From a virus, in IMG/VR virus record IMGVR_UViG_3300010392_000507, positions 1-26,706 of that record: DNA of 26,706 nucleotides, one strand, 5' to 3'. A model generated the notes under the pieces. That model did not search any database. It was not told where the DNA came from and worked only from the letters and a program-made list of their open reading frames with translations. Positions 10,285-26,340 of the stretch are shown here, one piece after another. Position 1 is the stretch's first letter. Each line of letters begins with the position of its first letter. The translations under genes and the position numbers were made by a program.

Positions 10285-10793
10285 TATTTCCCAAACATTG
10301 TAAAGTTTTTACTATAACTATTGTCTTTTCCTTCCGGCTTAATTCCGTACTCGTTTGTATCCTCATACAAAGGATATAAATCCTCATTTTCGCAAAGGTA
10401 TCGTTTTAATCGATTACGATAGAACGTTAAGTCTTTATAGGTTATATCCTTGGTTCGCTCCATTTGATTGGAGGTATTCGCTAGATAGTTTTGTTCAGTA
10501 GCAATCCCGACTCCAATATTTCTAATCTCGGTAGTAATGGCGTCCGCGATTCTTAACTCGACCGAAATCGAAAGAACCATCGCAATATAATCATTAATAA
10601 GTGTTAACTCGTCTGCTGTTAAATCGTCGTCCTCCACTCCTTGAAGTAATCTCTCATACAATGCAGAACCGAGAACCGGTTCAATATACATATCCTGAGA
10701 GCGTCTAAGTACGTTTCTAATAACTTCGACCTCTACGTTAGTATGAATTAACGAGAGCCTTTTTAACGAGTCTATATCAATTAAATAATTCAT
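10284..10793 (-). CDS. Head-tail connector/adaptor protein
   Basis: The start at 10793 (MNYLIDIDSLKRLSLIHTNV...) is preferred to an upstream TTG at 10820 because it makes a TAATG junction with the portal gene, the pattern used at other junctions here. The ~169-residue product is an all-helical protein resembling the small head-completion (gp6-like, DUF6712-type) adaptors of Bacteroidota phages: a helix with LSLIHTNVEVEVIRNVLRR, EPVLGSALYERLLQG, then two long helices ending RNRLKRYLCENEDLYPLYED. Such proteins form a ring under the portal. Position directly after the portal supports this. Confidence 0.65.
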   Translation of the reverse strand: MNYLIDIDSLKRLSLIHTNVEVEVIRNVLRRSQDMYIEPVLGSALYERLLQGVEDDDLTADELTLINDYIAMVLSISVELRIADAITTEIRNIGVGIATEQNYLANTSNQMERTKDITYKDLTFYRNRLKRYLCENEDLYPLYEDTNEYGIKPEGKDNSYSKNFTMFGK

Positions 10794-12586
10794 TATTCTA
10801 AAATTATATTTTGTTGCCAATAGTGCCTACAGAAAGGAGTATTTCTATCTGTGTTAGGATTATGATACCATCCTCCGCGATAAAGCCAGACGTCGCGATC
10901 AACTAAGGCAGAAACTTGTTCGATTTCTCCTCGAGTATAAACTCTATTGAGTGCGATTAATTCTCTACAGAAACCGCGAGTTGTTGGAATTACTTCCGGT
11001 TGTCCTAACTCTGGTCTAACCTCGTAGGTATAAACTACAGAAAGAGTTACTTTGTCGTGTCCTGCTAGTAGCTGGATTCCGGCGTCGGTTACTTTGTTGC
11101 CCTTATAATGTCCTTCGCTTTTAAGGTTGTCTATCATTTGAGATAGCTTAGAAGCTGGTACATTTATCGCCTTACGAATAGTGTCGAAGTCGCTACCTTC
11201 GTGAAGCATAGACAAAACGTTTACTTGAATGTCCGTTACCTTATCAAATTTTTTGTATTTCTTTAAAATTCCTTCCTCGTTTAATCTCTTCGGGTTAGCC
11301 TCTTGAGTATGTAGAATCCTCATTCTCTTTTTACGCTTTCTTCCAAACTGCTTAAACGCTTCGACTACCGGATCGGTATTGGCTCCAAAGTTAAAAGTAT
11401 TGTTATTCGCTTTTTCCTCTTCCGGAAGGTCGAGAGAAACCTCTTTAAAACAGATGTCTCCATCTCTACCGAGTAATGTTTCCCAAATGTACTGCAAAGG
11501 CGTTACGATTGCCCTTTGACGATATTTAAAGTATCCGGACTTCATTAACTCATAAGATATTTTTAACTCCGTTGCTCCTCCGAGTTGCCCTTCGGTTTTA
11601 ATTCCGAATAACATAGGATTAGTAACAGAGTGAGATAACAGAATATTTTCTTTGTTGTCTTTAGATAACGCCATATAACGCTGGTCTAAATTATTCCCCG
11701 TTAGATTCGTTACCGTTGTCTCCTTATCCTTTCCATTGTTAAAGGTAGCGAACACCCCTCCAGCGTTTGAGGAGCCTTGTCCGGCTCTCCTAACGTCGTT
11801 TACGATGTCGTCTCTATCTGAGTCCTCGGTCGGTTGCCCGTTGTTAAAGTTTATGATAGTTCCTAACGAGAAGTTGTTATAAATTTCGTTTCTTCGGTAG
11901 TTGTTTATTTCGATGTCGGTTTCTATCGCTAAGATTCCTCCAGAGTAAGGAGGAGCCGGATAGATTGCCTTTGTTACCTTGCTTTTAATTTTGATTTGCT
12001 TCGGTTGCTCTTTATAGTAGACTATTCTCGAGCCTGTCAAATCCGAAGTATCTAGTTCTTTATAACCTCGAACTCCTTCCTTCTTATCGCTCCAATCCGC
12101 AGAAATATAATAGGCGAACTCCTCATCGTTGTAAGCCTCTCTCGCTTGTTCAAAAGGTATATGATCGACTTGAAAAGGCTTTTTATTAACAAAGTTGATA
12201 ACAAAACAATAACCGTTATACACTTCTAAGTCCTGAGACAACAACTCTGTTATTTCATCCATGTTATAATCGGAGTTCCCATTTCTTAGAAACCTTTCAA
12301 ACTCTTGTAACTGAGTCCCTTTGTATCCTAATCCTCCCGAAACTGTATAGTGAACCTTTTGTCTAATAACTCCGTTATGAATAGCGCAATTATAATAAAG
12401 AGACGCCAAATAATAAGGATAAAGATTGTCCGAACCCCATTTATAAATATTTAGCTTACGATCGAAGTTCTCCGTCGGGTTAACCGTCGGTAGTGTCTTA
12501 GTCGCGTCGTAAAACTCGTATTGTTTCGGAGTGCTTCCTTCCTGTCTAATAGGTTTTTGTGTATCTATTTTAATCGATTCGCTCAT
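10793..12586 (-). CDS. Portal protein fused to a minor-head (Mu F/SPP1 gp7-like) C-terminal domain
   Basis: The 597-residue protein has a portal region at about 30-400, with KWGSDNLYPYYLASLYYN (49-66), the clip/wing segments around YNGYCFVINF, and TNPMLFGIKTEGQLGGATEL leading to a helix KISYELMKSGYFKYRQRAIV typical of portals of this phylum. After it, about 435-500 looks like a small winged-helix insert (ILKKYKKFDKVTDIQVNVLS), and the last ~90 residues carry TTRGFCRELIALNRVYTR and LYRGGWYHNPNTD...PFCRHYW, the Cys/His-containing signature seen at the end of Mu gpF-like minor head proteins. The fusion would combine the DNA entry ring with the head-morphogenesis protein. The portal call is strong; the C-terminal call is moderate. 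Confidence 0.8.
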   Translation of the reverse strand: MSESIKIDTQKPIRQEGSTPKQYEFYDATKTLPTVNPTENFDRKLNIYKWGSDNLYPYYLASLYYNCAIHNGVIRQKVHYTVSGGLGYKGTQLQEFERFLRNGNSDYNMDEITELLSQDLEVYNGYCFVINFVNKKPFQVDHIPFEQAREAYNDEEFAYYISADWSDKKEGVRGYKELDTSDLTGSRIVYYKEQPKQIKIKSKVTKAIYPAPPYSGGILAIETDIEINNYRRNEIYNNFSLGTIINFNNGQPTEDSDRDDIVNDVRRAGQGSSNAGGVFATFNNGKDKETTVTNLTGNNLDQRYMALSKDNKENILLSHSVTNPMLFGIKTEGQLGGATELKISYELMKSGYFKYRQRAIVTPLQYIWETLLGRDGDICFKEVSLDLPEEEKANNNTFNFGANTDPVVEAFKQFGRKRKKRMRILHTQEANPKRLNEEGILKKYKKFDKVTDIQVNVLSMLHEGSDFDTIRKAINVPASKLSQMIDNLKSEGHYKGNKVTDAGIQLLAGHDKVTLSVVYTYEVRPELGQPEVIPTTRGFCRELIALNRVYTRGEIEQVSALVDRDVWLYRGGWYHNPNTDRNTPFCRHYWQQNIILE

Positions 12587-12926
12587 CGTTTAGATTTATT
12601 GTATGATAGTTATCGCTCGGAGGCGTTTTATAGATTCTAGCTTTACTCACATAAGCCGGAGTTAGTCCCGTTAAGTCTGGACTCGGATCGTTCGTCGATA
12701 ACTCGTAAACGTTTAAAACCCATTCTCCGGTCTTCATTGGATTAGCTGTCGTATCCATTGCAAAGGTATAGAATCGCTCACTAATATACGAAGGAGTTAG
12801 AAACAATTCAACAACTTTTCCGTTGAGGTCGTCTAACTTCCAATGAAAATACCAATAAGGAACCGAAATCGTCGGAACCAACTCGATATTAAGTTCGTTA
12901 CTCGTTAATTGTTGGAGTACTAGCAT
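12570..12926 (-). CDS. Hypothetical virion protein (118 aa)
   Basis: Beta-rich 118-residue protein with repeated aromatic strands (VPYWYFHWKLDD, ERFYTFAMDTTANPM, GEWVLNVYEL). I do not recognise a family. It overlaps the portal start by 17 bases and sits between the capsid genes and the portal, so a small head-surface, decoration or neck protein is likely by location. Confidence 0.55.
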   Translation of the reverse strand: MLVLQQLTSNELNIELVPTISVPYWYFHWKLDDLNGKVVELFLTPSYISERFYTFAMDTTANPMKTGEWVLNVYELSTNDPSPDLTGLTPAYVSKARIYKTPPSDNYHTINLNDERID

Positions 12927-12931
12927 TTAGA

Positions 12932-13165
12932 TTACTTCTTTGCTGGTTTCTTCTTTTTTACTTCTTTCTTCTTTTCCGGTTCAGACGTCTTCTCCAACTT
13001 TGGAACCGCCTCAACTGGGATAACCTTTTTTGGTTCGGGAGTTACAAAAAACTCTCTTTTGTTGTGTTGTATTAAAATAGATTTATTTTCTTCGCATACC
13101 TCGACCTCACGATTAAGAGCGGCAACAAATACGAATGATCCGATAGATTTCTTCTTTAATTCCAT
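12932..13165 (-). CDS. Small virion-region protein with Lys/Pro-rich tail (77 aa)
   Basis: The first ~45 residues form a compact beta-type domain (GSFVFVAALNREVEVCEENK, then ILIQHNKREFFVTP), followed by a disordered tail of repeated Pro, Glu and Lys ending in KKKPAKK. This layout suits a small protein that binds DNA or acidic capsid surfaces through its basic tail. No family is recognised. It is the first gene downstream of the terminator at 13187-13222, so it probably depends on readthrough or on its own weak promoter. Confidence 0.55.
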   Translation of the reverse strand: MELKKKSIGSFVFVAALNREVEVCEENKSILIQHNKREFFVTPEPKKVIPVEAVPKLEKTSEPEKKKEVKKKKPAKK

Positions 13166-13186
13166 ATCCTTTTTTTGATTTTTTTA

Positions 13187-13222
13187 AAATAAAGGCTCGA
13201 AAGATTCTCCGAGCCTTTATTT
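13187..13222 (-). terminator. Rho-independent terminator after the capsid/tail-tube genes
   Basis: AAATAAAGGCTCG at 13187-13199 pairs perfectly with CGAGCCTTTATTT at 13210-13222 (13-bp stem, 10-base loop). On the minus strand the stem ends in TTTATTTT. It starts 13 bases past the stop of the tail-tube-like gene, so it would partly separate the abundant capsid and tube genes from the portal operon. Confidence 0.85.
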
Positions 13223-13234
13223 AATTGCTAACTA

Positions 13235-13753
13235 TTATGATCCTGCTAATAGAATCTGCTCTGCTAAAGCCGTTGAGATAGTAGGCGCGGTTAACACCTC
13301 TTTCCCTGACATCGCTACAGTATTTCCGTTTCGGTTTCCTAATTCGGTTCCCGAGTCGTCCGTATCTGTGTCGACCATCATTCCATTGATTAACCCAAAG
13401 TGTCTATTTAAACCGTTTTCATAGAAAGCGATTACCCCTAAACGTCCTTTGTTTAATAACTCTAGCAAATCGATTCCGTCCTGTGTTTTGTCGGCGAAAA
13501 TCATTTGTACCGCTTGAGCATAGAAGAAAGTTCCATCCGCTCTCGAACCGGTTCCGGTTTGAATAGCGTTTGAAAGTTCCATTTCCACTTGGAAGTCGTA
13601 AGCCATTTTGCCGTTTTTCATAACGATTCCGGTAATAGCGTTAGCCGTTCTAGTGTACGAGAATCTATTCTCTAGATTGTACATAATAAAACGTTTAACA
13701 CCGCCTACACTTCTACAGTTGCCCTTGGTATATCCTGCTGTTAATTCACACAT
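13235..13753 (-). CDS. Probable tail tube / major virion protein
   Basis: The 172-residue protein (MCELTAGYTKGNCRSVGGVK...) fits a family found next to the major capsid gene in Bacteroidota phages, with conserved Cys and GGVK at the N-terminus and an extended beta core (about 30-120) typical of tail-tube folds. Its place directly after the capsid gene and before a strong terminator suggests a protein made in large amounts. The family is usually left unnamed; 'tail tube' is inference from size, beta content and location, and a head-associated protein is the alternative. Confidence 0.55.
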   Translation of the reverse strand: MCELTAGYTKGNCRSVGGVKRFIMYNLENRFSYTRTANAITGIVMKNGKMAYDFQVEMELSNAIQTGTGSRADGTFFYAQAVQMIFADKTQDGIDLLELLNKGRLGVIAFYENGLNRHFGLINGMMVDTDTDDSGTELGNRNGNTVAMSGKEVLTAPTISTALAEQILLAGS

Positions 13754-13787
13754 AATTAAATGTTTTTAAGATTAGTAATTCAATTAA

Positions 13788-14759
13788 TTATGATGCTGGT
13801 AAAATCCATTTAACGAATTCGTTAGAATTAACATACTGAACACCTAAACGGTATTTAATATCTACGTGAATTTTATCCTCATCCTGAGAATAACCTACGA
13901 AGAAATCCTCCCAATCAGACTGCAAGTCAGTACCGATAAACATTCTGTCTAGTGGTCCTGCATAGATTGAGTTAGTTCCATCTAATCCGTGAACTAATTC
14001 GATAGTCGTAGTAGTTCCGTGTAACATAACCGAAAGGTTATCGTTGTTTGGATCGTAGTGGAAAAGGTTCGCGTTAGTTACCGCAGTTAAATATAAATCG
14101 TAAGTTTCTTTACCTACAAAGATTCTGTGATCTCTTCTCAATACTGGAGTCGGGATAGTGTTTCTAACCGATTGTAAGATAGCTATCACGTTAGCCGCAG
14201 TAATTGAAGCGATCGCCGTAGTATTTGCATTAACTACCGCCGCGTCAGCATCGAATAATTTCTTGAAACCATCGATTTTATTTAAGTTCGGAGCAACGTT
14301 CCCTAAAGAACCTTTCCAAATTAAATCCTCGTTAATCTCTTGGATTTTTCCGATTTGATGCGCGATAATTAAATCCTCGTAAGGCATTTGCTCCTGTCCG
14401 GCTCTGAATCCGTTAGGTAATCCTAACTGTCCCCAAGTATTAACCAAGTCCTCAGAGCAAAAATCTTGCTGTGATTTGATTGGTTTAACCGTCATTGCTT
14501 TGTCTGTTAAAGTAGTTGTACCACTTGCAGAACGTCCACAAGAACTCGCGTCCTGTAATACGATTGTATTATCTACTAGTTTAATTTCCTCAGAACCCTT
14601 AACTCCTTCCATGATTTGAACTAAAGACGCTGTTCGTCCTTCGTATATCATAGCTGGAATAATTTGTTCCGCTTGTTCGTCGACATAAGTTCCTAAACCG
14701 GTTACATCCCAGTTAAACTTTGCCTCGATTCTTTTTGCTAATTTGTTTCTTCTTGACAT
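13788..14759 (-). CDS. Major capsid protein (HK97-fold type)
   Basis: The 323-residue protein has the expected size, position (directly after the protease/scaffold) and pattern of an HK97-type major capsid protein without a long delta domain: an N-terminal arm with basic residues, a helix with EDLIIAHQIGKIQEINEDLIWKG (about 126-148), a DGFKKLF segment, RRDHRIFVGKETYDLYLTAV as the spine/A-domain transition, and a C-terminal strand region with YAGPLDRMFIGTDLQSDWED and YRLGVQYVNSNEF. The cleavage site cannot be placed with confidence. An extended AT-rich intergenic stretch upstream of the protease gene is the likely promoter region for this pair. Confidence 0.8.
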   Translation of the reverse strand: MSRRNKLAKRIEAKFNWDVTGLGTYVDEQAEQIIPAMIYEGRTASLVQIMEGVKGSEEIKLVDNTIVLQDASSCGRSASGTTTLTDKAMTVKPIKSQQDFCSEDLVNTWGQLGLPNGFRAGQEQMPYEDLIIAHQIGKIQEINEDLIWKGSLGNVAPNLNKIDGFKKLFDADAAVVNANTTAIASITAANVIAILQSVRNTIPTPVLRRDHRIFVGKETYDLYLTAVTNANLFHYDPNNDNLSVMLHGTTTTIELVHGLDGTNSIYAGPLDRMFIGTDLQSDWEDFFVGYSQDEDKIHVDIKYRLGVQYVNSNEFVKWILPAS

Positions 14760-14778
14760 TTTGTTTAAAATTTAAAAG

Positions 14779-15231
14779 TTATTTACTAGGCGTGGTTAAG
14801 TCCTTCCAAGTTTTTTTGTCTTTACGCTCGAATTTTTTCTTACCGTCAACTTTTGACTGTTCTAAGGCTTCAAACTTCGCCTCCATTTCTACTTTGTACG
14901 CTTCAAAGTTTTCGTTTAACGTCTTCATAACGTTAACAACTTCCGCTAAAGTTACATCCTCTAAGGCTTCCTCTCCTTCTTCTTCAACTTCTACAACTTC
15001 CGTTACCATACCGTCGGCATCGATAACGATAGTTCTTCCATCTTCTAGAACGTGAGAACCTTCCGGAGCCGCGATTTGATTTCCTTCGTCGTCAGTAATA
15101 AATACAGCCGTTCCGACCATAAGGTCTCCTTCGTATGTTAAAACAACGCCGTCAGTAGTCGTAGCTTCGGCGAACTTCTTCTCGTCTTTTCCGAAAACTA
15201 GCGTAAATAATGATTTTTTAGATTTACTCAT
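14779..15231 (-). CDS. Possible nested scaffold protein from an internal start
   Basis: An ATG at 15231-15229 begins MSKSKKSLFTLVFGKDEKKF within the protease frame. The bases before it (AATAATAAAAACCAAAACAA) are strongly A-rich, like the leaders of other genes here. The product would be a 150-residue scaffold protein without the protease, comparable to lambda Nu3 inside gene C. Not proven: the same DNA also encodes a low-complexity Asn/Lys linker in the full-length protein. Confidence 0.45.
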   Translation of the reverse strand: MSKSKKSLFTLVFGKDEKKFAEATTTDGVVLTYEGDLMVGTAVFITDDEGNQIAAPEGSHVLEDGRTIVIDADGMVTEVVEVEEEGEEALEDVTLAEVVNVMKTLNENFEAYKVEMEAKFEALEQSKVDGKKKFERKDKKTWKDLTTPSK

Positions 15232-15774
15232 TTTGTTTTGGTTTTTATTATTAGATTTAATTTTTACTGGAATCTGGTCGAATATACCCTCGACTGAAAA
15301 GCCGACATACTTTCCGGATTTAATCTCATTATAAAGGGCTTCGTTCTCTACATAGTAAGTCATAACATACGATCCGTTTTGGACGTTCTCGTCGTCGTTT
15401 GGCGGTCGCTTAGTATCCGAAACAAAGTAACCCTCAACGAAAGTAATTCCGTTAACCACCTTCTCCGAGTCGTGCATTAAGTTTACAGAACTTAACAACT
15501 GCTGTCTCGACATTTTTAGAACCATCTTTTCGACTTCCTTAGGCTCAAAGTATACGTAATACTCTCCGAGGTCGTGGTCGTGTCTAAAAATTAATTGATT
15601 TGCTGAGATAGCTACTCCAGTAATCATTCGCTTTGAATCGTTAAAATGGAGTTCTCTTTTTTGCTCTTTATTAAAAGCTAGAAGGCTCTTATTGTGAGCC
15701 GGTCTATCAACTAAAGCGTTGAAGGTCAGACCGGTTTCGTCTTCGAGGTCAATTATTAGTTTAAATACTTGCAT
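14779..15774 (-). CDS. XkdF-like prohead protease fused to a scaffold domain
   Basis: The 331-residue protein starts with an XkdF-type serine protease (Peptidase_S78_2): ALVDRPAHNKSLL at 20-32, MITGVAISANQLIFRHD at 50-66, NLMHDSEK at 98-105 with the putative catalytic His101, VEGYFVSD at 113-120 and GKYVGFSVEG at 154-163 with the putative Ser160. An Asn/Lys-rich joint (174-181) leads to a second part: a beta segment with the pattern of Bacteroidota scaffold proteins (TTDGVVLTYEGDLMVG), an acidic stretch, and a coiled coil (about 285-320). This layout of protease then scaffold is classical for capsid maturation genes. An internal ATG at codon 182 may start the scaffold alone (see next entry). 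Confidence 0.78.
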   Translation of the reverse strand: MQVFKLIIDLEDETGLTFNALVDRPAHNKSLLAFNKEQKRELHFNDSKRMITGVAISANQLIFRHDHDLGEYYVYFEPKEVEKMVLKMSRQQLLSSVNLMHDSEKVVNGITFVEGYFVSDTKRPPNDDENVQNGSYVMTYYVENEALYNEIKSGKYVGFSVEGIFDQIPVKIKSNNKNQNKMSKSKKSLFTLVFGKDEKKFAEATTTDGVVLTYEGDLMVGTAVFITDDEGNQIAAPEGSHVLEDGRTIVIDADGMVTEVVEVEEEGEEALEDVTLAEVVNVMKTLNENFEAYKVEMEAKFEALEQSKVDGKKKFERKDKKTWKDLTTPSK

Positions 15775-15800
15775 ATAACTTCCTAATTATTAGTTATTTC

Positions 15801-15848
15801 CAAAAATATAGGAAAGTATCCGAAGAAAAAAAGTTTTTTTCAAAAATA
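15801..15848 (-). promoter_or_regulatory. Candidate promoter region for protease and capsid genes
   Basis: The 76-base gap between the glycosyltransferase stop and the protease ATG contains two TATTTTTG octamers matching TAnnTTTG (15841-15848 and 15801-15808), a third weak -7-like TACTTTCC at 15818-15811 with TTG 22 bases upstream, and an A7/T7 tract (15825-15841) that is an inverted repeat. It is one of the few true intergenic gaps, so a promoter is likely, but which -7 element is used is unclear. Confidence 0.42.
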
Positions 15849-15850
15849 TT

Positions 15851-16525
15851 TTAATCAAAGTACTTTTTAAGGTCGTAGATTTCGTTAGCTAGTTCTATCT
15901 GACGCCCTTCGTTCCTTGAGTGTTTTGAATAAATAGAGTCGTTTACAACTTGTGGTTTAATGAATCCAGCCTCGTGAGGAAGTATAACGATTTTCTTTCC
16001 TTGCTTCTTCGCTTCGAGTCCGAAAACGATATCGCTCATACATTGATCCGGCGAGTTATAGATTTCAGTTGGCTTAAAGTATCTGGTATCGAACGCGGTT
16101 ACTCCGGTTCCGGATACATCAATATAATAGGCTCCTTCGACTGTGTTCGCACAATGGAAGAACTCGTGTCCTCGGTAATAACTTACGTCCTTATCAACTA
16201 AAATCCTTCCGTGATAAGTTACAATAGTCCCGTACTTTTCAATCCCTTGTTTCATATCCCTAACGAGCGTCGGAGGGTAAATAATATCATCGTCTAAACA
16301 AATATAAATCTCGTCCTGCTCTATAATACTCAATCCGTAAAACTTTCCGTTATCTGTTAGGTCGTCCCCTTGGAAATAGGTATGTTTTTTAATGAAGGTC
16401 GGAACGTAATCGAAGCCATTAAGATAGATTCTTATTTCGTCCGCTTGTCCTTTTAAACTTTCGAGCGTTGCGCCTAGTTGGTCGATTCTGCTCGGCATCG
16501 TTGCGATGTTTATCGTTGTTCTCAT
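15851..16525 (-). CDS. GT-A type glycosyltransferase (family 2-like)
   Basis: The ATG at 16525, which makes an ATGA overlap with the upstream gene, is preferred to a TTG at 16534, giving about 224 residues. The protein begins INIATMPSRIDQL, continues with DNGKFYGL (58-65) and IYICLDDDIIYPP (73-85) carrying the DxD metal/sugar-nucleotide motif at 77-80, HGRIL at 105-109, FHC near 123-125 and a SGTGVTAFDT segment, the pattern of a small GT-A family seen in capsule/LPS clusters. It would transfer a nucleotide-activated sugar to an acceptor in the cytoplasm. It lies in a three-gene cassette with another glycosyltransferase and a sulfotransferase-like gene, inside the virion gene block. Confidence 0.75.
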   Translation of the reverse strand: MRTTINIATMPSRIDQLGATLESLKGQADEIRIYLNGFDYVPTFIKKHTYFQGDDLTDNGKFYGLSIIEQDEIYICLDDDIIYPPTLVRDMKQGIEKYGTIVTYHGRILVDKDVSYYRGHEFFHCANTVEGAYYIDVSGTGVTAFDTRYFKPTEIYNSPDQCMSDIVFGLEAKKQGKKIVILPHEAGFIKPQVVNDSIYSKHSRNEGRQIELANEIYDLKKYFD

Positions 16526-17148
16526 ATATACCAACTTCTAATGGTTGTTATTTGTTCTTTCCTCATATCCTGATAAGCCTTAGATTTGTTTCCGATACTC
16601 TTTTGCTCCTGATGTAATCGGTAGTAATATAAAACCTTATCAACGTAGCCTATTTTAAATCCGTGCGACAACGCTCGAAGGTTTAACTCGTACTCTTCGC
16701 CAGTCCATAGAGACTCATTAAAAAGCCCTATCTCCTCGAATACGCTCCTTCTATACATTAAGGAACCTCCATGAATATAGTTATGTGTTATTAAACTGTT
16801 TAGGCTTACGTTCTTTTTTGGAGGTCTGTAAATCAAACCATTTTGAACTAATCCCGAGAAACTCTTCGCGTTTCCATGTATAAAGTCTATTCGCTTATTA
16901 AAGCCTTTTAAGGAACTTTCTATCGAGTCGGGAGGTAGTATATCATCGTCGCAGAGATACTTTATAAAATCGCCGCTAGACTTCCTTATCCCGTTGTTTA
17001 GATTCTCAGAAACTCCGGCGTTTCCTTGTGATAAAATTAACTCGACGTTTTTGTGAGTTTGATTCTCTACCGAACGGATCGCCTCGTCTAACCAGCCTCT
17101 ATCCTCTCGATATGGAATTATTACGCTTACCTTTTTAGAGTTGTTCAT
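16522..17148 (-). CDS. Family 2 glycosyltransferase
   Basis: The ATG at 17148 (MNNSKKVSVIIPYRE) is preferred to an in-frame TTG at 17163; it gives 208 residues. Motifs in order: VSVIIPYRED at 7-16, NQTHKNVELILSQG at 29-42, CDDD at 66-69 (DxD metal/UDP site), GGSLMYRRSVFEEIG at 127-141, GEEYELNLRA at 150-159 (acidic catalytic region) and YRLHQEQKS at 176-184. This is the standard layout of GT2 enzymes of the LPS/capsule type. It overlaps the sulfotransferase-like gene by 14 bases and the next glycosyltransferase by ATGA, so the three genes are made together. Confidence 0.85.
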   Translation of the reverse strand: MNNSKKVSVIIPYREDRGWLDEAIRSVENQTHKNVELILSQGNAGVSENLNNGIRKSSGDFIKYLCDDDILPPDSIESSLKGFNKRIDFIHGNAKSFSGLVQNGLIYRPPKKNVSLNSLITHNYIHGGSLMYRRSVFEEIGLFNESLWTGEEYELNLRALSHGFKIGYVDKVLYYYRLHQEQKSIGNKSKAYQDMRKEQITTIRSWYI

Positions 17149-17728
17149 AGTTAAATTTTTCAAAGATTTTTTTACTAACGTTTTTATTAATAAAAGAAAT
17201 GTCCTCCTTTGTTAATTTAGATTTCCACTCTTCCTCGAGGTAATACTTTAGCCGGTTAAACTTTCCGATTAGGTTTCCTCCGGAGTTAACCTCTTTGTCG
17301 ATATTCTTAAACGGTCGGAGTTTTAAATCGTAGTGCTTCGACAATTCTTTTAAAATAGCCTCGGGATTTCTTTGCAAGTCTTCCGACCTAATTAAAAAGG
17401 CGTTACCTCTCTGCTCTAGAAAGTCGATATAACTTTTGTAAATGTCGTTATACCTTTCGACCGCGTTCGAGTACTTCCTCCACTCGGTACGAAGAAACTC
17501 GTCGAATGAAAGGTAAATATACTTTTGTCTAAACTGGAAACTTCCGTGAGGCTTCTTCCAGAGGCTTAATAACCACGAATAAGGATTTTTAACCAATACG
17601 ATATGAATATCGCCGTTTGTGTATGTCGGGAATTGGTGCGACTTGGAAACCTCAACTCGAAAGTTAGTCTCGATTAATTTAACGAGGTAGTTGTTGCACG
17701 AGTTCCGCTCTCCGTAAATCTTTATCAT
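17135..17728 (-). CDS. Sulfotransferase-like protein
   Basis: The 197-residue protein has the P-loop-like start and 3'-phosphate site pattern of PAPS-dependent sulfotransferases: YGERNSCNNYLVKLIETNF at 5-23 (the place of the 5'-phosphosulfate-binding loop), KSHQFPTYTNGDIHIVLVKN at 29-48 and NPYSWLLSLW at 48-57 (the R/K-x-P...S motif), then FLIRSEDLQRNPEAIL at 111-126. The usual GT pair of the loop is CN here, so activity is not assured. Genes of this type occur in surface-glycan clusters. The start overlaps the tape measure stop as ATGA, so the cassette is tied to tail gene expression. A role in sulfating virion glycans is inference. Confidence 0.68.
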   Translation of the reverse strand: MIKIYGERNSCNNYLVKLIETNFRVEVSKSHQFPTYTNGDIHIVLVKNPYSWLLSLWKKPHGSFQFRQKYIYLSFDEFLRTEWRKYSNAVERYNDIYKSYIDFLEQRGNAFLIRSEDLQRNPEAILKELSKHYDLKLRPFKNIDKEVNSGGNLIGKFNRLKYYLEEEWKSKLTKEDISFINKNVSKKIFEKFNYEQL

Positions 17729-19893
17729 AATTGAGACGTTGATACGCTTTGCTCGTTCTCTTCTACCACTCGAGTAATATCGGAAGCTAGAACCGTTACT
17801 CGTCTTTCTCCGGTATCCGTTGGAGGATTTAAAAGGTCGTCTGTTAAAGTTCCCTCTCCGGTTTCTCCGGTTTGCTGGTTTTGGAAGTCCGTACTTCCTC
17901 CGCCTCCGCCGCCTGTAATATTTCCAGCGATTTGAGGTATTGTTATTCCTCCTCCGCCCGGCAATTTAGCTTGTGCTAAAGCGTTACGAGCGTTAACCAT
18001 ACCGGCTAAAACCGTACTAACTCCCGTTGCTATTGCTGGGATATTAGACGGGAACGGTAGTCCTGCTCCGGCTTTAATTGCTCCGGAGATTCCTACTCCC
18101 GTATCGATTGCAATCTGAGCAATCGCGACAGTCTTTTGGAACGCGGCGTTCTCCCCGCTTAGTTGCGATATACTTCCTAAAATATTGGCGGTAGACTGAG
18201 CAACCGAAAACGCGGATTGTATTTTCGCGTCGTTAATCTTTTGAGTGAACTCCGCCTCCTCTTTTTGTATCTTTTTACTCGCGTTACTGTTTTGCTGTTC
18301 GATTAAATTCTTTCTTAGCCCGAACTCTTCATCGGTTAAATTCTCCTGCTCCTTTTGGAGTTGCAAGTCTTCTAACTGAGCCTCGAAGTTTTCTCGCTGG
18401 ATATCTCTTCTAGCGGCGAAGAATTCTCTCGCTTCTTCCGGAGAGGAGTTGTCGTCGAGTTCTCCTTGTGATTCCTCCTTTATTTGGAGTCTCAGGTCTC
18501 GTAGTGCTTTCATTTGCTCTCCTTCGGCGATTAACTTATCGTCCGCGAATTGTTGCTCAATCTCTGCGATTTCTTCCGCCTGTTTAATCATTAACTCTTT
18601 TTCGAGTTCGGCGTTTCCTTCGGCGAGAGCGAACTTCTCATCGTACTGTTTTACTAAATCCGATATCTCTTTTTCCTGCGCGGACTGTCTTAACTCCTCC
18701 ATTAACTCGAATTGAGCATCCGCTCTCATTTGCTCCTCCTCCATTAACTTTTGTTCCTCTTCGGCTTTCTTCTCTCCAGCTTTTACCCGTTCGTCGACTT
18801 CCTTTTTAAAGTTGTCGGTTACTTTCTTTTGTTGAGCGATTTCCGCGACAGCCATTTCTCGAGATAAGCGCTTAAATTCTTCATTCAATTCCTTCGCTCT
18901 CGCCTTTTGGTCGTCGTTAAACTCGCCTGTTAACTTGGCTAACTGGATTAACGCTTTTCCTTCGGCTCTAACTCTTTCAATTAACGCTTTTCGCTTCTCT
19001 TGTTCAAGTTCAAAAGTTGCTTTTCCTGCGGCTTGTGCTTTTGCTATCTCAAAATCGTAACGGTTGTTAATTGCTTCCTCCTCATCCTTCGCCGCTTGGA
19101 GTCTAGCCTCTGCTAACTTCTTAGCGATTTCGGTTTGTTCGCTCTCTAAAATCCCGAGAGTCCTTAATCCTTCTTTGACTAATTCGATTTGCTTAATAAA
19201 GGCGTCTACTACCGGCTGTAAAAACTCAAAACGTTCGATTGTTTTGTTGATCCAATTAACAAACTCCTTCCAGTTAGCAATCAACGCTCCAATTAGTACT
19301 ACTATCGCTCCGATACCAGTAGCAATCAACGCTAACCTAAACAATTTTAACGCTCCGGTAGATGTTCCAACGGCTAAACCGTAGGCTTTTTGTACTGCGG
19401 CTAATCCTTTGGTTATTACGCTATTACGTTGAAGCAATGAAGCCCGAGCCGCCTCTAGTGAGTTCAATAATTGTTGAGCCGCTTGGAGTTTTACCATCGT
19501 CTCGAGAAGTTTCTCGTTCTCAACTCCTACAATAGCGGAAACCGCTTGAAATGCTCCGTAACTATTAATAGCTGTTTGAGATATTCCTACAACACTCCTA
19601 AAAGTATCGAAGTCCGTATTGTTTCGGGTTACTAATTCGTTAACCTTGTCGAGTTCTCCTTGTAGTTGAGCGGCTTTTTGGATTGCCTCTTTTCCGATTG
19701 GCGTCTCTGCTCCAGCCTTTAACGCGGCGGACTTATAGAGTTCAATCTTTTTAGTCATTGCCGCGACTACTTCGCCGTTCTCCTTTGTTTGTTCCTCAAG
19801 GTCTACGAACTTCGCCTCGACTTCTTCAATCGCGTTTACCGAGTCGTCCGCGTCAATACGGAGGTTTAATATTACATCTTTTTCCTCTGCCAT
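17725..19893 (-). CDS. Tail tape measure protein
   Basis: The 722-residue protein has the hallmarks of a tape measure: long helical, Ala/Glu/Lys/Gln-rich coiled coil (about 20-180 and 250-560), one hydrophobic membrane-like segment (about 184-208, LALIATGIGAIVVLIGALIA), a second Ala/Gly-rich hydrophobic region (about 575-640, with GTGVSTVLAG type motifs) and a Gly-rich, disordered C-terminus (about 650-690). At roughly 1.5 Angstrom per residue, the general rule for these proteins, it would predict a tail near 100 nm; that is an estimate. It suggests a long-tailed (siphovirus-like) virion. No peptidase or lysozyme domain is obvious in it. Confidence 0.85.
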   Translation of the reverse strand: MAEEKDVILNLRIDADDSVNAIEEVEAKFVDLEEQTKENGEVVAAMTKKIELYKSAALKAGAETPIGKEAIQKAAQLQGELDKVNELVTRNNTDFDTFRSVVGISQTAINSYGAFQAVSAIVGVENEKLLETMVKLQAAQQLLNSLEAARASLLQRNSVITKGLAAVQKAYGLAVGTSTGALKLFRLALIATGIGAIVVLIGALIANWKEFVNWINKTIERFEFLQPVVDAFIKQIELVKEGLRTLGILESEQTEIAKKLAEARLQAAKDEEEAINNRYDFEIAKAQAAGKATFELEQEKRKALIERVRAEGKALIQLAKLTGEFNDDQKARAKELNEEFKRLSREMAVAEIAQQKKVTDNFKKEVDERVKAGEKKAEEEQKLMEEEQMRADAQFELMEELRQSAQEKEISDLVKQYDEKFALAEGNAELEKELMIKQAEEIAEIEQQFADDKLIAEGEQMKALRDLRLQIKEESQGELDDNSSPEEAREFFAARRDIQRENFEAQLEDLQLQKEQENLTDEEFGLRKNLIEQQNSNASKKIQKEEAEFTQKINDAKIQSAFSVAQSTANILGSISQLSGENAAFQKTVAIAQIAIDTGVGISGAIKAGAGLPFPSNIPAIATGVSTVLAGMVNARNALAQAKLPGGGGITIPQIAGNITGGGGGGSTDFQNQQTGETGEGTLTDDLLNPPTDTGERRVTVLASDITRVVEENEQSVSTSQL

Positions 19894-20229: not shown

Positions 20230-21243
20230 TTAGTTAGTTGATATTATTCCGTTTATTTGTGCGGATAGCTGAGTATTATTATCGGATACATCAGAGACTC
20301 CCCATTTAAAATCCGTTTTTTCTGGTAGTGGCAAAATATAGCCCTCTCCAGTTTGAAAAGGAGATTTGTCGCTTATGTATTCATCGACTTTATTATTAAA
20401 GACATTGCCTCCTACATAGCGAGTTGAAAACTCAACGTTTGCGCTTCCATCTGCTCCGGTACTCCTTGCCATTTTACAGGACATATCAGTTATATAAAGA
20501 GTCTTTCCAGCCGGAACCGTATCACAAGCGACGAGAGTTTGTTCTTTCCCTGCGGTAATAAACCAGAATACGTTAGCCGTTGTTGTGGTTTGTCTTCCTG
20601 TGATATCTCCTTGAGCGCCGTTATTTGAACCTGATAGAACGACAAGCGCTCTGGAGTTACGGATGTAACTCGTCCCCGAAGTATCTACTCCGGTCGCTCC
20701 GTTTAGGATTACGTATTCAGAATATTCTAGATAATCGTTGTCTAATAACTTGGTTAGCTTAACAACCGCCGCTCCGGTTCCACTTGCGTTAACCACTCTA
20801 TAAGAATCCGTGTCTACTGGGATATACGTAGTCTTTGCGAGTCCTCCGTCTACAAACTTAACAACGGTTAAGAACGTTTCGGAGGACACCTCTTTAACTA
20901 CTCCGTGAAAGTCTTGAGTATCGTTTAAAATAATGTCTCCGACCGCTACTCCGTCGGTTATAAATGTCGCTCCAGAATCAACTAGAGTTGTAGCGGTTCC
21001 GCCCGTAGCGGTTCCCGAAGAAACTAAAGAACCCGTATCCGCAACCGAAGAAGAAAACACCTCGACCGCTTGTCCGCTAGTTGCATCGAATCCAGTATAA
21101 AGACCGGAGGAACCCCATAAATCCTCCGGAGCCGAACCCGTATCAACGTCGTTATTTCCTCCAAACTTATTGTATATTGAGTTGTTTGTTACGTCGCCTT
21201 GAGCGACTTCTAACTTAAATATTGTTGTTCCTATGTATGTCAT
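20230..21243 (-). CDS. Virion/receptor-contact-like protein
   Basis: The 337-residue protein resembles a structural family of marine and environmental phages: NKFGGNNDVDTGSAPEDLWG (about 25-44), VEVFSSSVADTGSLVSSGTA, then a C-terminal part with QTLVACDTVPAGKTLYITD and NVEFSTRYVGG. Between them, about residues 80-190 carry repeated beta strands (IILNDTQDFHGVVKEVSS, TTYIPVDTDSYRVVN) that look like an inserted beta domain. It is Thr/Ser/Gly rich, with no enzyme motifs. The start overlaps the upstream tail gene by 4 bases. A tail or virion surface role is likely; the exact place is unknown. Confidence 0.6.
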   Translation of the reverse strand: MTYIGTTIFKLEVAQGDVTNNSIYNKFGGNNDVDTGSAPEDLWGSSGLYTGFDATSGQAVEVFSSSVADTGSLVSSGTATGGTATTLVDSGATFITDGVAVGDIILNDTQDFHGVVKEVSSETFLTVVKFVDGGLAKTTYIPVDTDSYRVVNASGTGAAVVKLTKLLDNDYLEYSEYVILNGATGVDTSGTSYIRNSRALVVLSGSNNGAQGDITGRQTTTTANVFWFITAGKEQTLVACDTVPAGKTLYITDMSCKMARSTGADGSANVEFSTRYVGGNVFNNKVDEYISDKSPFQTGEGYILPLPEKTDFKWGVSDVSDNNTQLSAQINGIISTN

Positions 21244-23804
21244 ATTATACTAAATGAATTATCGTTATTTTTTTGAACCATAACAGAGTCGTTTAATTTT
21301 TTTACAATGAAACTCTCTGCCTCTCCGTCTATCGGATACGGATCGCCTCCGGAGTCGTCCTCTGCGATAACGGTTAGTTTATTTGTAGCGTCTGTTAGTT
21401 TGAAGTTCCAAACGTAACCGACAGGAACGTTAATCGGAAGCGTGATAGTTATATCTCCTCCCGATGTATCTACTAAATAAGTTGAGGCGTTCGTGTCCGC
21501 CGTTTTACTGCTGGAGACTTCCTCGGTTGGAAATTGTGGAGTGTTCCCCATCTTAGAGGAGTCGTTAATAAAGTCGTTGGTTAACGCTAGGTTAAACGTG
21601 CTTTTAGCATCACTCTCCAATACTTTTATTAGTTCACATTTCGTAGTCTCGAAACCGGTAGAGTCGTAGTCTTTTATTAAATTCTTTCTGAAAACTGATC
21701 CGTTGATATTAACGAGGTTCCTCATAAACTCGCCTTGCAAATCCTGTTCATTTACTTTAACCGAAGCCTCAATAAATTTTGAATCCGGCGAGGTTAGTTC
21801 TTTTATCATTGTATCATATCCGGTAGCATACAGATTGTTAGTCGTGTAATTCGTAGCCGTGTAAAATATCTCTTGAGGAACTCCGAAGTTTAAATCAAAA
21901 GTCGGGTTGCTTGGTTCGGCTAAATGATGGACTTGAGGATAATCGGTCTCCGACGTTATCGCGCCGGTTGTTGAATTGATTAAATCCCAAGCGCCGGTCT
22001 TTAGTTTGTTATAAAAGAATATCCTTGGCTTTCCTTTGTATGGGGATACTACATTTGATACCGGATCGAGGTTAACCACTTGAGGGATAATCAAATCGTC
22101 TACTTGAATCGGTACGGTTTGAGCGAATAGAACCTCATACTTTTTTACGTCCTTCTTAAATGTAGTCGGTACGTTGAAATCGTAATCGCCGTAGTCGTGT
22201 CCCCAACGCTCGAAATAGTATTGTTTGTAAGCGTCTCTATCCTCCTTGAATCTAAACTGATAGACCTTTCCGTCTATTCCGGCGTTTGTCTTAATTGTGA
22301 TATCTTTCGAGTGGTCGATTTTCTCAGTCCAGTTTTCCGCCTCGGTTACTGAGTTGTAATAATCCGGAAATTGTTCTATCCTTATCTCGTCGTCCTGATT
22401 AGGATCAGAAAGATAAAGGTTAAACATCGTTATAATGGAGTTTAAGAAATCGCGACATTTGATGTCTGGAATCCATCGAGACATCTCTACGGTATCCCCT
22501 TCGACTAGTTCCGCTTCGATAGAAGTTAGGTCTATTGTACAAGTGTTAATAGTCCAATCGAAATCTACAGTCGGTGCGTTTGCTGGAGTTGTTTGAGCCG
22601 CATAGGTATTGAATAACTCGACGGTTATCTTATACCTCAACTCGTCTCCTGATTTTAGGTTATATTGAAAGTTCCCCGTTACCACCTTGGAACCTGTATT
22701 TAAAAACGTACCGCTTAACGTTTGGTTCTGAGCATTGTTAACCCATACGGCAACGCGAATCCTCCCTCGAATGTTTGAGCCGTTATAAGTTCCTCCGACA
22801 AAGGCGAGAGCGTCGACCTCCATATCTAGAGCAAAGTTAACGTTATACTTTCCAGCCTTTGCCACCGTCATAACTCCGGTAGTCTCATCGAATTGAGTTA
22901 ACGTATCCTGTACGAGCGTAGTAGCTATTGGAGATATATCTCCGACCGAGTAATCCTTTGTAAAGAAATAGATTGCTCTTGAGTCGTTATATACGTTTGT
23001 TATTTGTGAGTAGCTTATAGAGTTGTTCTCTGTTCCTGCGGCTGTGTATTTACTTTGACGGTCGGCAACCTCTGAGGCTGGTAGCTGGATTCTTTCTCCT
23101 CCACCCCAACCATAAATTAACCGCTTCACTAGGTTGGTATCTATCCAGTCCCCGATAATGGTATAACCGCCAACGGCGAAACACTTCTCGATAGTTTCCT
23201 TCACGTATAGAAGAGGAATAATCTCGTTTGTCTTTAACGCCTTTTGATTAAAGGAGTAACCCCAGTTAATAAGCGGATAGATATATCCGAAGCCGTCCGG
23301 ATTAGTTCCTGTAAAGTTAGAAGTAGGTACGCCGTCTACCTCGACGGAAGTATCCCAGCTTAACTCGATGTTGCTAACTGTTAGGTCGTGATCGTATTCG
23401 CTCCAATCTAATTCCGAGAGAGTTTTATCTCCTAAGTCCTCAAACAACTCAATAGAGTTTCCGAATATTTGGAACTTGAAGAAATAACCGGTATTAGGTT
23501 TTTTAACTACCTCGATAAAATTTGCAATCCCTGTAAAGATTAGAGTTCCGTTCCTTACGATTTTAGTTGGGAGTTCCGCGTTCGGGTTAAAGTTTAAACC
23601 AGAGGATAAGTCGTCGATTGAAATATTGTAAGCCGGAAACATAATAGCGAGATTGTTCCTCGTTCCTTTTATCTCGATTGACTTCGAGTGGTTCCGACTC
23701 CTCTTGTTTGGAGATTTTACGTCTGCTATTGAATAGGTAAGCGGAGCAATTATCGAAGAGTCGATATCTATTCTCTCGTTATTTATAAACAGTTGTAAAT
23801 CCAT
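21240..23804 (-). CDS. Large tail-associated (tip/hub) protein
   Basis: The 854-residue protein starts MDLQLFINNERIDID and resembles large tail proteins of Bacteroidota phages: an N-terminal region (about 1-130) with NKRSRNHSKSIEIKGTRNN and repeated beta strands, a central region rich in aromatic beta segments, a likely hub-like domain around 430-560 (ECRDFLNSIITMFNL-type motif: CRDFLNSIITMFNLYLSD), and a C-terminal beta sandwich (about 770-854) with ASTYLVDTSGGDITITLP of the kind found in tail tips and fibres. It is the largest gene in the window. The precise role (distal tail, hub or fibre) cannot be decided without structure comparison. Confidence 0.65.
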   Translation of the reverse strand: MDLQLFINNERIDIDSSIIAPLTYSIADVKSPNKRSRNHSKSIEIKGTRNNLAIMFPAYNISIDDLSSGLNFNPNAELPTKIVRNGTLIFTGIANFIEVVKKPNTGYFFKFQIFGNSIELFEDLGDKTLSELDWSEYDHDLTVSNIELSWDTSVEVDGVPTSNFTGTNPDGFGYIYPLINWGYSFNQKALKTNEIIPLLYVKETIEKCFAVGGYTIIGDWIDTNLVKRLIYGWGGGERIQLPASEVADRQSKYTAAGTENNSISYSQITNVYNDSRAIYFFTKDYSVGDISPIATTLVQDTLTQFDETTGVMTVAKAGKYNVNFALDMEVDALAFVGGTYNGSNIRGRIRVAVWVNNAQNQTLSGTFLNTGSKVVTGNFQYNLKSGDELRYKITVELFNTYAAQTTPANAPTVDFDWTINTCTIDLTSIEAELVEGDTVEMSRWIPDIKCRDFLNSIITMFNLYLSDPNQDDEIRIEQFPDYYNSVTEAENWTEKIDHSKDITIKTNAGIDGKVYQFRFKEDRDAYKQYYFERWGHDYGDYDFNVPTTFKKDVKKYEVLFAQTVPIQVDDLIIPQVVNLDPVSNVVSPYKGKPRIFFYNKLKTGAWDLINSTTGAITSETDYPQVHHLAEPSNPTFDLNFGVPQEIFYTATNYTTNNLYATGYDTMIKELTSPDSKFIEASVKVNEQDLQGEFMRNLVNINGSVFRKNLIKDYDSTGFETTKCELIKVLESDAKSTFNLALTNDFINDSSKMGNTPQFPTEEVSSSKTADTNASTYLVDTSGGDITITLPINVPVGYVWNFKLTDATNKLTVIAEDDSGGDPYPIDGEAESFIVKKLNDSVMVQKNNDNSFSII

Positions 23805-23808
23805 ATCC

Positions 23809-24975
23809 TTAAACTACAGTCGAAGTATCTTTATCAAATACTAAATCAACTTTCAAATTAAAAACCATGTCGTTGGCGTTCGTCTTATACTCATATTTAG
23901 AAGTCCTTACCTTACATTTAACCAGCGTTCCAGATTCGTTTATGTAAACGAGCGGAGACTCTAGCAAGTTCTTAACAAGCCAATTATATTCGTCTTCGCT
24001 TATGAAATCCGTTTGAACTTGGAGACTCCTTTCGGCTGTCTTCACGTAATCGGTTAACCCTCCTTGGTTAAAGTCCCAAGCGTTTGAATCGTCGAAATAT
24101 CCGAATTGCTCTTGAAACTCTTGTCCTTTTATCTTTGCTCCTTCCTGAGAGCGTTTAGTAAATCGATACGTTTCGAGTGATCCGACCTTGGATAGAAACT
24201 CGATTGTTTTATCTGAGGTAGAAACGCAACGCCCGTTAATATCATTATCAACGTAAACCTTTAGCTTTTCAGAATCTACCGCGCCGTTGTCGCAGTAAAT
24301 CTCAAAGTATTTTGTATTATCTATGTTGTTCTGAGTATGTCCGTAGGTCGCTAATAGAACCGCGTTGTTAATTGTGATAATCGAAACAACGTCTCGGATA
24401 GCACTTCCGGAAGAACCCGAAGCGAGTAACGAATCCGAAGAATCGTAAAGGTCGACCGTAAAATCTAACGTATTGCTATCTGTTAAATACATGAAGTGAT
24501 AATCCTTTGCTAGTTCTACGAATCTCTTCTCGGTTCTCGGAAATAGAGTTAACCAAAGTGAAGAAGCGGCGAACTCATAACTCGAAGGAGTCCAGTTAAT
24601 AAAATCTAGTTTGGTTTGTTTTCCTTTATAAGCGACGATAGTATCCTCGTCGGACGCTTGGTCGGCTGGAGGAGTTCCGTAGTTCTCAATTACCTTAACC
24701 TTTAGGAGTTCGATATAGTTCTCCGCGTCGTATATGTCCGTCGATGCAATTTGAGGAGCAACGCAATACCTCTCCGCAAAATCTGAGGCGTTAAAGTGAG
24801 CATATATCCCAGCCTCGGGAAAAACGAAGTGAGTCTCCTTTAAAACTCCGTCGGCGTATAGTTCAACTTTGTAACTGAAATTGTCTTGAGCGGTTTGATC
24901 GGAAGAGAATACAAATATTACAGGGTTTCCGCTTAGTGAGAAGTTGTCCGGAGTTTGAGATATAGTTACTGCCAT
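23809..24975 (-). CDS. Tail-associated virion protein (388 aa)
   Basis: This beta-rich protein starts MAVTISQTPDNFSLSGNPVI, with two or three immunoglobulin-like segments (about 1-130: FSYKVELYADGVLKET; about 140-250: NTLDFTVDLYDSSDSLLASG) and a C-terminal part with EYNWLVKNLLESPLVYINES and KCKVRTSKYEYKT. The pattern fits a tail protein that pairs with the large tip protein in Bacteroidota phages; the two genes are 4 bases apart. No catalytic motif is seen. Confidence 0.62.
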   Translation of the reverse strand: MAVTISQTPDNFSLSGNPVIFVFSSDQTAQDNFSYKVELYADGVLKETHFVFPEAGIYAHFNASDFAERYCVAPQIASTDIYDAENYIELLKVKVIENYGTPPADQASDEDTIVAYKGKQTKLDFINWTPSSYEFAASSLWLTLFPRTEKRFVELAKDYHFMYLTDSNTLDFTVDLYDSSDSLLASGSSGSAIRDVVSIITINNAVLLATYGHTQNNIDNTKYFEIYCDNGAVDSEKLKVYVDNDINGRCVSTSDKTIEFLSKVGSLETYRFTKRSQEGAKIKGQEFQEQFGYFDDSNAWDFNQGGLTDYVKTAERSLQVQTDFISEDEYNWLVKNLLESPLVYINESGTLVKCKVRTSKYEYKTNANDMVFNLKVDLVFDKDTSTVV

Positions 24976-24980
24976 GTTAT

Positions 24981-25559
24981 TTATCTTTGAAAGTCTAAAG
25001 TTACAATTTTTCCTAACTCCTCCGCTAATTCTTTTTCAATTAATTGTAAAAATTCCGGAGTTAACACATTATCAACGAAATGATTAGGCTCTATTCCATC
25101 ACGTTTTAGTTTAACTGCGGCGGCGTAACTGTATGATTCAAAGGACTTAAAGGTCGCAGGAAGCGCAATCCCTTTGAGCGACATTCCTCGCTGTAATGAT
25201 TTAGCCATTGCCCGATTTGGGAAAGGAGTTCGGAACGAGTACGGACTTCCAACGTTTTTCCGGAGACCGTTAACTCCGTCGTTTACATATTTCCAGTATT
25301 CGTTCGCGGAAACTGTAATCTTTACGCGGTCGCCGTCTGTCTCGATTATGTTTGGAGGTGCTTGTCCGATCGATTGGAGAAGGATATCGTTTGTTCCTCC
25401 TCCGGAATCTATGTAACTCTGTTTTAACTGACTGATTATCTGAGTCGCAACCGTTACGAGGTAATTATGCAAGGGAGTATTAGGGATTGGTTTTAAATCC
25501 TCCTTTACTTTTCCGATGCTGTCGAAGAGTCCCTCGAATCCAGTTACTTTTAATTCCAT
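24981..25559 (-). CDS. HK97 gp10-like / tail-completion protein
   Basis: The 192-residue protein has the layout of HK97-gp10-like or neck proteins: an N-terminal helical region with LVTVATQIISQLKQSYIDSG, a strand-turn EYWKYVNDGVNGLRKNVGSP (about 87-106) and a SYAAAVKLKRDGIEPNHFVD segment near 148-167. The YVNDGV...RTPFPNRAM stretch is typical of the family. It starts 2 bases after the -1 frame stop of the upstream tail chaperone. Position at the start of the tail module is unusual for a head-completion protein, so 'tail completion' is only a moderate call. Confidence 0.62.
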   Translation of the reverse strand: MELKVTGFEGLFDSIGKVKEDLKPIPNTPLHNYLVTVATQIISQLKQSYIDSGGGTNDILLQSIGQAPPNIIETDGDRVKITVSANEYWKYVNDGVNGLRKNVGSPYSFRTPFPNRAMAKSLQRGMSLKGIALPATFKSFESYSYAAAVKLKRDGIEPNHFVDNVLTPEFLQLIEKELAEELGKIVTLDFQR

Positions 25560-25561
25560 AG

Positions 25562-25863
25562 TTAACGTTTATGTCTCATTTCTGCAATCTTTATCTTTTT
25601 GTTTTCCTCTCTAACGGTAAAGTTAAAGAAATCAACTTTATGTTTAAACCAGAAATAATTCTTTTGAGTGATTTCGTCCCAAGTCATGTTTAGTTTTTCG
25701 CTTAACATCTGCAAAGTTAACTCCCATTGGTACGGCTCCGCCTCTGGTTCTATCCCTTCCTCCTTTTGTCTTTCTTCTCTTTTTTCTCTGACCGAATCCT
25801 CCTCTGGTTCTTTATTTCCTCGTAGGCGATAGCGTAACTCTCGGACTTCTTTTCCAAAAAAAA
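25562..25863 (-). CDS. -1 frame extension of the tail assembly chaperone (frameshift product C-terminus)
   Basis: In the -1 frame relative to the 196-aa gene, the sequence is open from well upstream of the nine-T run (25856-25864) to TAA at 25564-25562, about 100 codons. The decoded tail reads GKEVRELRYRLRGNKEPEED near the run and continues with PYQWELTLQMLSEKLNMTWD and later FWFKHKVDFFNF, a normal-looking protein. It ends 2 bases before the next start codon, so it fills a 190-base gap left by the zero-frame stop. The fused product would have about 259 residues. The exact slip point is not certain (see findings). Confidence 0.6.
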
Positions 25864-26340
25864 ACCGATATCCAAACTGATATCCGCAGAGAGGTATTCT
25901 CGAAAGTGTTCCGCTCTCATTGCGACGGGATTTAAAACATTGCCGTGTTCATCTTTAGCACAATACTCGAAATCCTCCTCGATATAAACAAAGGCGGCGA
26001 CGACTGCGGCGTCCGATGCTCCAAAGTTTTGTAAATCTATGTGCCAACTCATTGGCATTTTAGAGACTTTCTCAATCCTTTTGAATTTCCTTCCTTCGAC
26101 TTCTAACTTTTTCGGAGGATCAACTCGCTTCGTGTCTCCAATTAGTTTCGTATAGTGGTCGATTATCTGGTTAATCTGCTGGATAGATATCCTCATAACC
26201 GTTTCAAGGTCTAAGCTAGTCAGCTTGTGAACCAGAACGGCTTTATCGTAAACGTGGTAGTTGTCGACGTCGACGTCTGCAATCGCTTCGATGTGATAAA
26301 GTCTTAAATCCTTTATTGATTTTGGAATTTTTAAATTCAT
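25750..26340 (-). CDS. Candidate tail assembly chaperone (frameshift-type, zero-frame product)
   Basis: The 196-residue protein is mainly helical and starts MNLKIPKSIKDLRLYHIEAI, with segments such as MRISIQQINQIIDHYTKLIG (about 50-70) and ISLDIGFFLEKKSESYAIAY (about 154-173), and ends in a very basic run (EKKEKKDKRRKG). It lies at the start of the tail gene block, where the G/GT-type chaperone usually precedes the tape measure. A long -1 frame continues past its stop (see preceding entry). The zero-frame C-terminus is low complexity from about residue 178. The chaperone call rests on the frameshift pattern and context; sequence similarity is not clear. Confidence 0.55.
   Translation of the reverse strand: MNLKIPKSIKDLRLYHIEAIADVDVDNYHVYDKAVLVHKLTSLDLETVMRISIQQINQIIDHYTKLIGDTKRVDPPKKLEVEGRKFKRIEKVSKMPMSWHIDLQNFGASDAAVVAAFVYIEEDFEYCAKDEHGNVLNPVAMRAEHFREYLSADISLDIGFFLEKKSESYAIAYEEIKNQRRIRSEKKEKKDKRRKG
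25856..25864 (-). other. Nine-T run: candidate -1 slippery site
   Basis: The minus strand reads GG-T9-GG, giving zero-frame codons GGT TTT TTT TTG. The last seven bases form T TTT TTG, a canonical X XXY YYZ heptamer in the correct frame for -1 slippage. A homopolymer of nine also favours polymerase slippage. Confidence 0.55.

Follow-up and report, generated by a model that had tools for sequence, protein, structure and literature searches.

The gene at positions 25562–26340 (minus strand) of the window, the 26.7 kb stretch of viral DNA analysed here, can be taken with near certainty to carry a programmed shift of some kind, as judged from its own reading frames and from those of its relatives. 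The site is a run of nine T's, at which one start codon would serve both a zero-frame product and a longer -1 fusion. Tail assembly chaperones of siphophages use -1 slippage to make G and GT products, and it is likely, taking both parts of the claim together, that the window gene encodes such a chaperone and that its -1 shift is made by the ribosome.

Slip site and reading frames of the window gene

The zero-frame ORF runs from the ATG at 26340 to a stop at 25752–25750 on the minus strand and encodes 196 aa. The codons GGT TTT TTT TTG, spanning 25866–25855, hold the T9 run itself at 25864–25856, within which two in-frame heptamers, T_TTT_TTT and T_TTT_TTG, are correctly phased. In RNA form, U_UUU_UUU and U_UUU_UUG are the classical heptamers for tandem slippage. 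From the T run onward the -1 frame stays open as far as a TAA at 25564–25562, with the ATG of the next gene (25559) two bases on, and fusion through a -1 shift gives a length of 259 aa. The features of the locus, and those neighbours that bear on it, are as follows.

25750..26340, minus strand: zero-frame ORF, probable tail assembly chaperone (G-type product); ORF, profile match and AlphaFold2 model
25856..25864, minus strand: nine-T slip site GGT TTT TTT TTG; sequence, with nine or more T's kept at the site by 157 of 158 related contigs
25562..25864, minus strand: -1 frame extension (putative T-type domain), 100 residues, accessible by frameshift only; open frame, coding score and late first start codon
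25753..25855, minus strand: dual-coded overlap of 34 codons, zero-frame tail atop the -1 domain; both frames score as coding, family-wide selection
24981..25559, minus strand: gene that follows, an HK97 gp10-like tail/connector protein on a weak match; 29% identical to its syntenic counterpart P12024L gp43
23809..24975, minus strand: structural protein of 388 aa; counterpart of P12024L gp45 by synteny, 25% in pairwise alignment
21240..23804, minus strand: 854-aa protein, probably a minor tail protein; homologue of P12024L gp46, 23% identity
17725..19893, minus strand: tape measure protein, with several genes between it and the chaperone gene upstream of it; matches to tape measure PHROGs, the best at E 7.2e-9

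The T9 run is the sole A/T run of nine or more on either strand of the window, which is probably a fragment, against an average of 5.7 in shuffled sequences. Long A/T runs are therefore depleted, and the run at the slip site stands out. Past the zero-frame stop the -1 frame has a coding score of 0.17. True frames of this phage score 0.21 ± 0.07 and shifted frames -0.52 ± 0.21, and the overlap region scores as coding in both frames (0.08 and 0.06). The earlier note on this DNA was correct in its coordinates, its frames, the phasing of T_TTT_TTG and an open -1 frame of about 100 codons, and the product sizes it gave, 196 and 259 residues, agree with the ORF and fusion read from the sequence. Its impression that the -1 product resembles a real protein fits a score near that of true genes, and the A6 run that it had set aside as not a canonical heptamer in this frame is indeed unphased.

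Relatives of the gene and selection on both frames

When the window gene itself was searched directly, as nucleotides and as protein, no match appeared in phages or viral contigs, and scans of genome contigs yielded zero relatives. The route to relatives was provided by the nearby 854-aa tail protein, which matches Nonlabens (Persicivirga) phage P12024L. Gene order in the window and in P12024L is identical except for one extra gene, and directly after the P12024L terminase gene lies a 175-aa ORF with a T9 run (CTT TTT TTT TAT) and an open -1 frame. The isolated phage P12024S, like P12024L, has the same site and frame arrangement, again beside the terminase gene. BLAST of the window protein against P12024L gp40 gave no signal, and the similarity was detected by profiles alone. 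Using hhalign, the window protein matched a profile of 43 relatives with a probability of 94.7% and a score of 49.6, whereas 60 shuffles scored at most 19.0. An alignment limited to the part ahead of the slip site took the place of a MAFFT alignment with the whole zero-frame window protein, which misplaced the site. The -1 domain of the window matched the T domains of the relatives weakly, with an E of about 0.001 in a single comparison, and the window protein alone gave no match to the model of PHROG 32199. Profile homology, together with neighbours that are 23–29% identical and in order, assigns the window gene to the P12024L gp40 family (PHROG 32199). AlphaFold2 models were made for one family member (pLDDT 77.9) and for the window protein (pLDDT 76.9). 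Both match the same uncharacterised viral proteins in BFVD, P12024S included, although the window model was built on an alignment of these relatives and the two models are thus not fully independent.

A first scan with gp40 as the query found 63 relatives, all with the T run, but used a search peptide that spanned the slip site and may have biased the result. The scan was repeated with an alignment ending ahead of the site, and this set forms the main evidence. In this set, all loci that extend as far as the site carry T9 or T10 and have the -1 frame open, over 83–88 codons where the contig did not end inside it. More distant members were added by scans that started from the 854-aa protein and from a second subfamily. 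Among 158 related contig loci, a few of whose contigs occur in more than one scan, the run is T9 in 153, T10 in four and T7 in one; with loci more than 90% identical dropped (n = 78), the corresponding counts are 75, 2 and 1. The direction of the shift is -1 in all 158.

The Phe codons of the slip site are TTT in 156 of 156 cases, compared with 75% for the other Phe codons of the same genes (P about 2e-20, treating sequences as independent). Substitutions were counted by zero-frame codon position on 51 independent pairs. Upstream of the run, substitutions per site at positions 1, 2 and 3 were 0.14, 0.09 and 0.38, peaking at the zero-frame third position; past the zero-frame stop they were 0.05, 0.25 and 0.10, with the peak moved to the third position of the -1 frame. 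Within the overlap the rates were low and split (0.08, 0.13 and 0.14). This pattern indicates that each frame is translated and selected where it codes, and that both are selected in the overlap.

The earlier note named as its alternative that the T run carries a fixed indel or a sequencing error, which would leave the gene as one ORF or a broken one. Errors are common in homopolymers, and the window comes from a single metagenomic contig. However, 158 related contigs and two isolates change frame at this very site, and the zero-frame tail of the relatives past the run is itself under selection, so that the probability left to an indel or error is negligible. For the family, the conserved run and the selection on both frames refute a fixed indel. 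The comparison of homologues that the earlier note had proposed thus came out in favour of slippage, with the T run and both frames conserved across the 158 contigs under purifying selection. A single-ORF homologue does exist in a distant lineage, L156 (9058–9870), which appears to encode the fused chaperone as one continuous ORF with no frameshift. This ORF is placed downstream, not upstream, of the 854-aa homologue and offers a natural contrast to the frameshift form.

RefSeq lists two separate hypothetical proteins at each of the isolate loci (gp40/gp41 in P12024L and gp38/gp39 in P12024S), an annotation that would suit two overlapping genes, the second with its own start. For the window gene such an arrangement is very improbable. 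No ATG, GTG or TTG occurs in its -1 frame ahead of residue 51, the conservation of the -1 frame in relatives begins at the T run itself, and two genes would leave the invariant run unexplained. An independent start of the downstream gene was accordingly rejected, given the late first start codon and the conservation from the run onward. The isolates and the window share a homologous gene, a T9 run at the homologous codon and an open -1 frame; they differ in that TAT follows the run in the isolates whereas the window run ends in TTG, and in that the frameshift is unrecorded in the isolate annotations.

Two further arrangements were seen among the relatives. One subfamily has a second T9 run (L146:5121–5129, and at the same place in L147, L150, L151 and others), which sits between the stop of the -1 domain and the next gene and is missing from L172–L179. 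In the L036 group (e.g. L036:1978–2721) the overlap reaches up to 84 codons and the -1 domain is dual-coded almost throughout.

Identity of the gene product

Tail assembly chaperone is probably the best label for the product of the window gene, on the basis of profile and fold comparisons. The PHROG 166 family, 'tail protein', is matched by 16 of 57 relatives (best E 1.3e-4), and Pfam Phage_TAC_7 (PF10109), a phage chaperone family described as 'E, or 41 or 14', gives weak, sub-threshold matches in three. The named fold matches of both AlphaFold2 models in BFVD are only to tail assembly chaperones or tail assembly proteins, all weak. The window protein had no significant match among named families, and fold searches of the PDB, including solved chaperones such as HK97 gp13, gave no usable match. 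Another weak fold match, gp10 of Flavobacterium phage 6H, was tried as a supporting case and rejected: it has T_TTT_TTC, but its -1 frame closes immediately. In that phage (L181, 10048–10927, minus strand) the heptamer lies at the end of gp10 and a tail-like ORF then follows in the -1 frame.

The chaperone gene typically comes immediately before the tape measure gene, though this order is not a strict requirement. The window gene is co-oriented with and upstream of its tape measure gene, about 5.7 kb and five genes apart, and in P12024L, too, the two would stand apart if gp50 is the tape measure protein. The chaperone identity put forward in the earlier note is therefore held as probable; the tail-protein and weak fold matches speak for it, and the position away from the tape measure gene against it. 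It is improbable, though not negligibly so, that the frameshift is real and programmed but belongs to a tail or connector gene with a role other than chaperone, a reading compatible with either slippage mechanism. The gene adjoins terminase and gp10-like genes, lies far from the tape measure gene and encodes a protein without a significant named domain, as such a gene might; the PHROG tail-protein and weak Phage_TAC_7 matches of the relatives, the chaperone-annotated fold matches and the G/GT design of the products all point away from it.

Among known systems, the closest parallel to the putative chaperone gene lies in P2, whose E/E' genes slip at TTTTTTG without downstream structure (PMC3091744). 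In both, the -1 slip falls on a heptamer within a T run, close to where the first ORF ends, and in the window family, too, no downstream structure was detected; the likeness extends to Phage_TAC_7, which relatives of the window gene match weakly, while sequence similarity between P2 E and the window family is sub-threshold. The window gene differs from P2 in its run of nine T's, its longer proteins and a tape measure gene that is not adjacent; its overlap spans 34 codons, and overlaps in relatives reach 84. The slip sequence of lambda differs from that of the window. In lambda, gpG and gpGT arise as two products from a single start by a -1 shift into the T domain (PMC5009743), and the same design of one start, two products and a -1 shift into a T domain is read in the window gene; no sequence similarity to gpG/gpGT was detectable.

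Several other genes of the window are of separate interest. The structural genes at 10284–19893 have an unusual order, in that the tape measure gene precedes the protease gene, the probable major capsid gene and the portal-like genes. Between the tape measure and protease genes, at 15851–17728, three genes that appear glycosyltransferase- or sulfotransferase-like by eye may be concerned with glycan modification, a Pfam match being absent for two of them. At 56–1559 a NinG homologue (E 2e-22) stands beside a gene that is PAPS-reductase-like by eye, with no Pfam match, and at 7320–7739 a DUF5675 protein (E 2e-31) is encoded near small membrane genes in a possible lysis cassette.

Slippage by the ribosome or by RNA polymerase

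Slippage itself, its rate, its ribosomal origin and the chaperone function are what we infer for the window gene. In the proposed mechanism, one start codon would give rise to two proteins. Most ribosomes would stay in the zero frame and produce the 196-aa G-type chaperone, while a minority would slip one base back on U_UUU_UUU or U_UUU_UUG within the U9 run to produce the 259-aa GT-type fusion. If lambda gpG/gpGT is a guide, the N-terminal part common to both products would bind the tape measure protein and the domain read in the -1 frame would bring in the tail tube protein, in a ratio of products set by how often slipping occurs.

Tandem-tRNA ribosomal slippage on a heptamer is favoured by the sequence comparison because the direction is always -1 and because one homologue, L159, has T7 only. 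This locus reads ACA AAT TTT TTT ATG and contains exactly one phased heptamer. A constant -1 direction is a sign of ribosomal rather than polymerase slippage, whereas families that use polymerase slippage tend toward mixed directions (PMC3711429). A search for pseudoknot-free stimulatory RNA structure downstream of 79 sites gave no signal (mean z -0.06), and Shine-Dalgarno-like motifs upstream of the site were mildly more frequent than background (22 of 79 versus 16%). Stimulators of these kinds often accompany programmed -1 sites but are dispensable. The host is inferred from P12024 to be a member of the Bacteroidota, in which Shine-Dalgarno pairing is generally ineffective and mostly ignored by ribosomes (PMC8710568).

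Alternatively, RNA polymerase may slip on the T9 run, so that some mRNAs gain a U (U10) and are translated normally into the fusion. This is unlikely, yet several observations are in its favour. The sites at which polymerase slips frequently consist of 8 or more identical bases (PMC3711429), a length reached in 157 of 158 relatives, which have at least nine T's. The last slip codon is TTC in 0 of 78 loci, compared with 25% TTC elsewhere, even though TTC there would preserve both proteins and the heptamer U_UUU_UUC. In the window the Gly codon supplies one upstream T and nine are still attained via TTG, and no ribosomal stimulators were detected. Against polymerase slippage are the -1 direction in every relative and the persistence of the arrangement in L159 on seven T's. 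In addition, coding accounts for two of the nine T's in relatives, one being the middle T of Leu, Ile or Val and the other a T common to zero-frame Tyr and -1-frame Leu, and U_UUU_UUU may simply outperform U_UUU_UUC as a ribosomal site in these hosts. Shigella mxiE and Thermus dnaX are genes of transcriptional slippage on U9 or A9 runs. The window family resembles them in having a homopolymer of nine or more, but differs in that its shift is always -1 and in that one homologue keeps only seven T's.

On either mechanism, the comparisons give good support to a known kind of recoding that is newly seen in a large phage family and unannotated in the records examined. A guess made on a single contig becomes a family-wide, selection-backed recoding site in phages with nearly all genes unnamed; P12024L and P12024S, both isolated phages, gain a corrected annotation, and a chaperone label is suggested for PHROG 32199. 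There is some chance, though a limited one, that a widespread and unannotated siphophage family, probably of Bacteroidota, makes its chaperone fusion by polymerase slippage, or by polymerase and ribosome together. If this is true, slippage of that kind on a near-invariant T9 run would stand in place of the shift that lambda and P2 are known to leave to the ribosome alone. The family would offer a clean natural system in which to separate ribosomal from polymerase slippage, where ribosomes mostly ignore Shine-Dalgarno sequences (PMC8710568).
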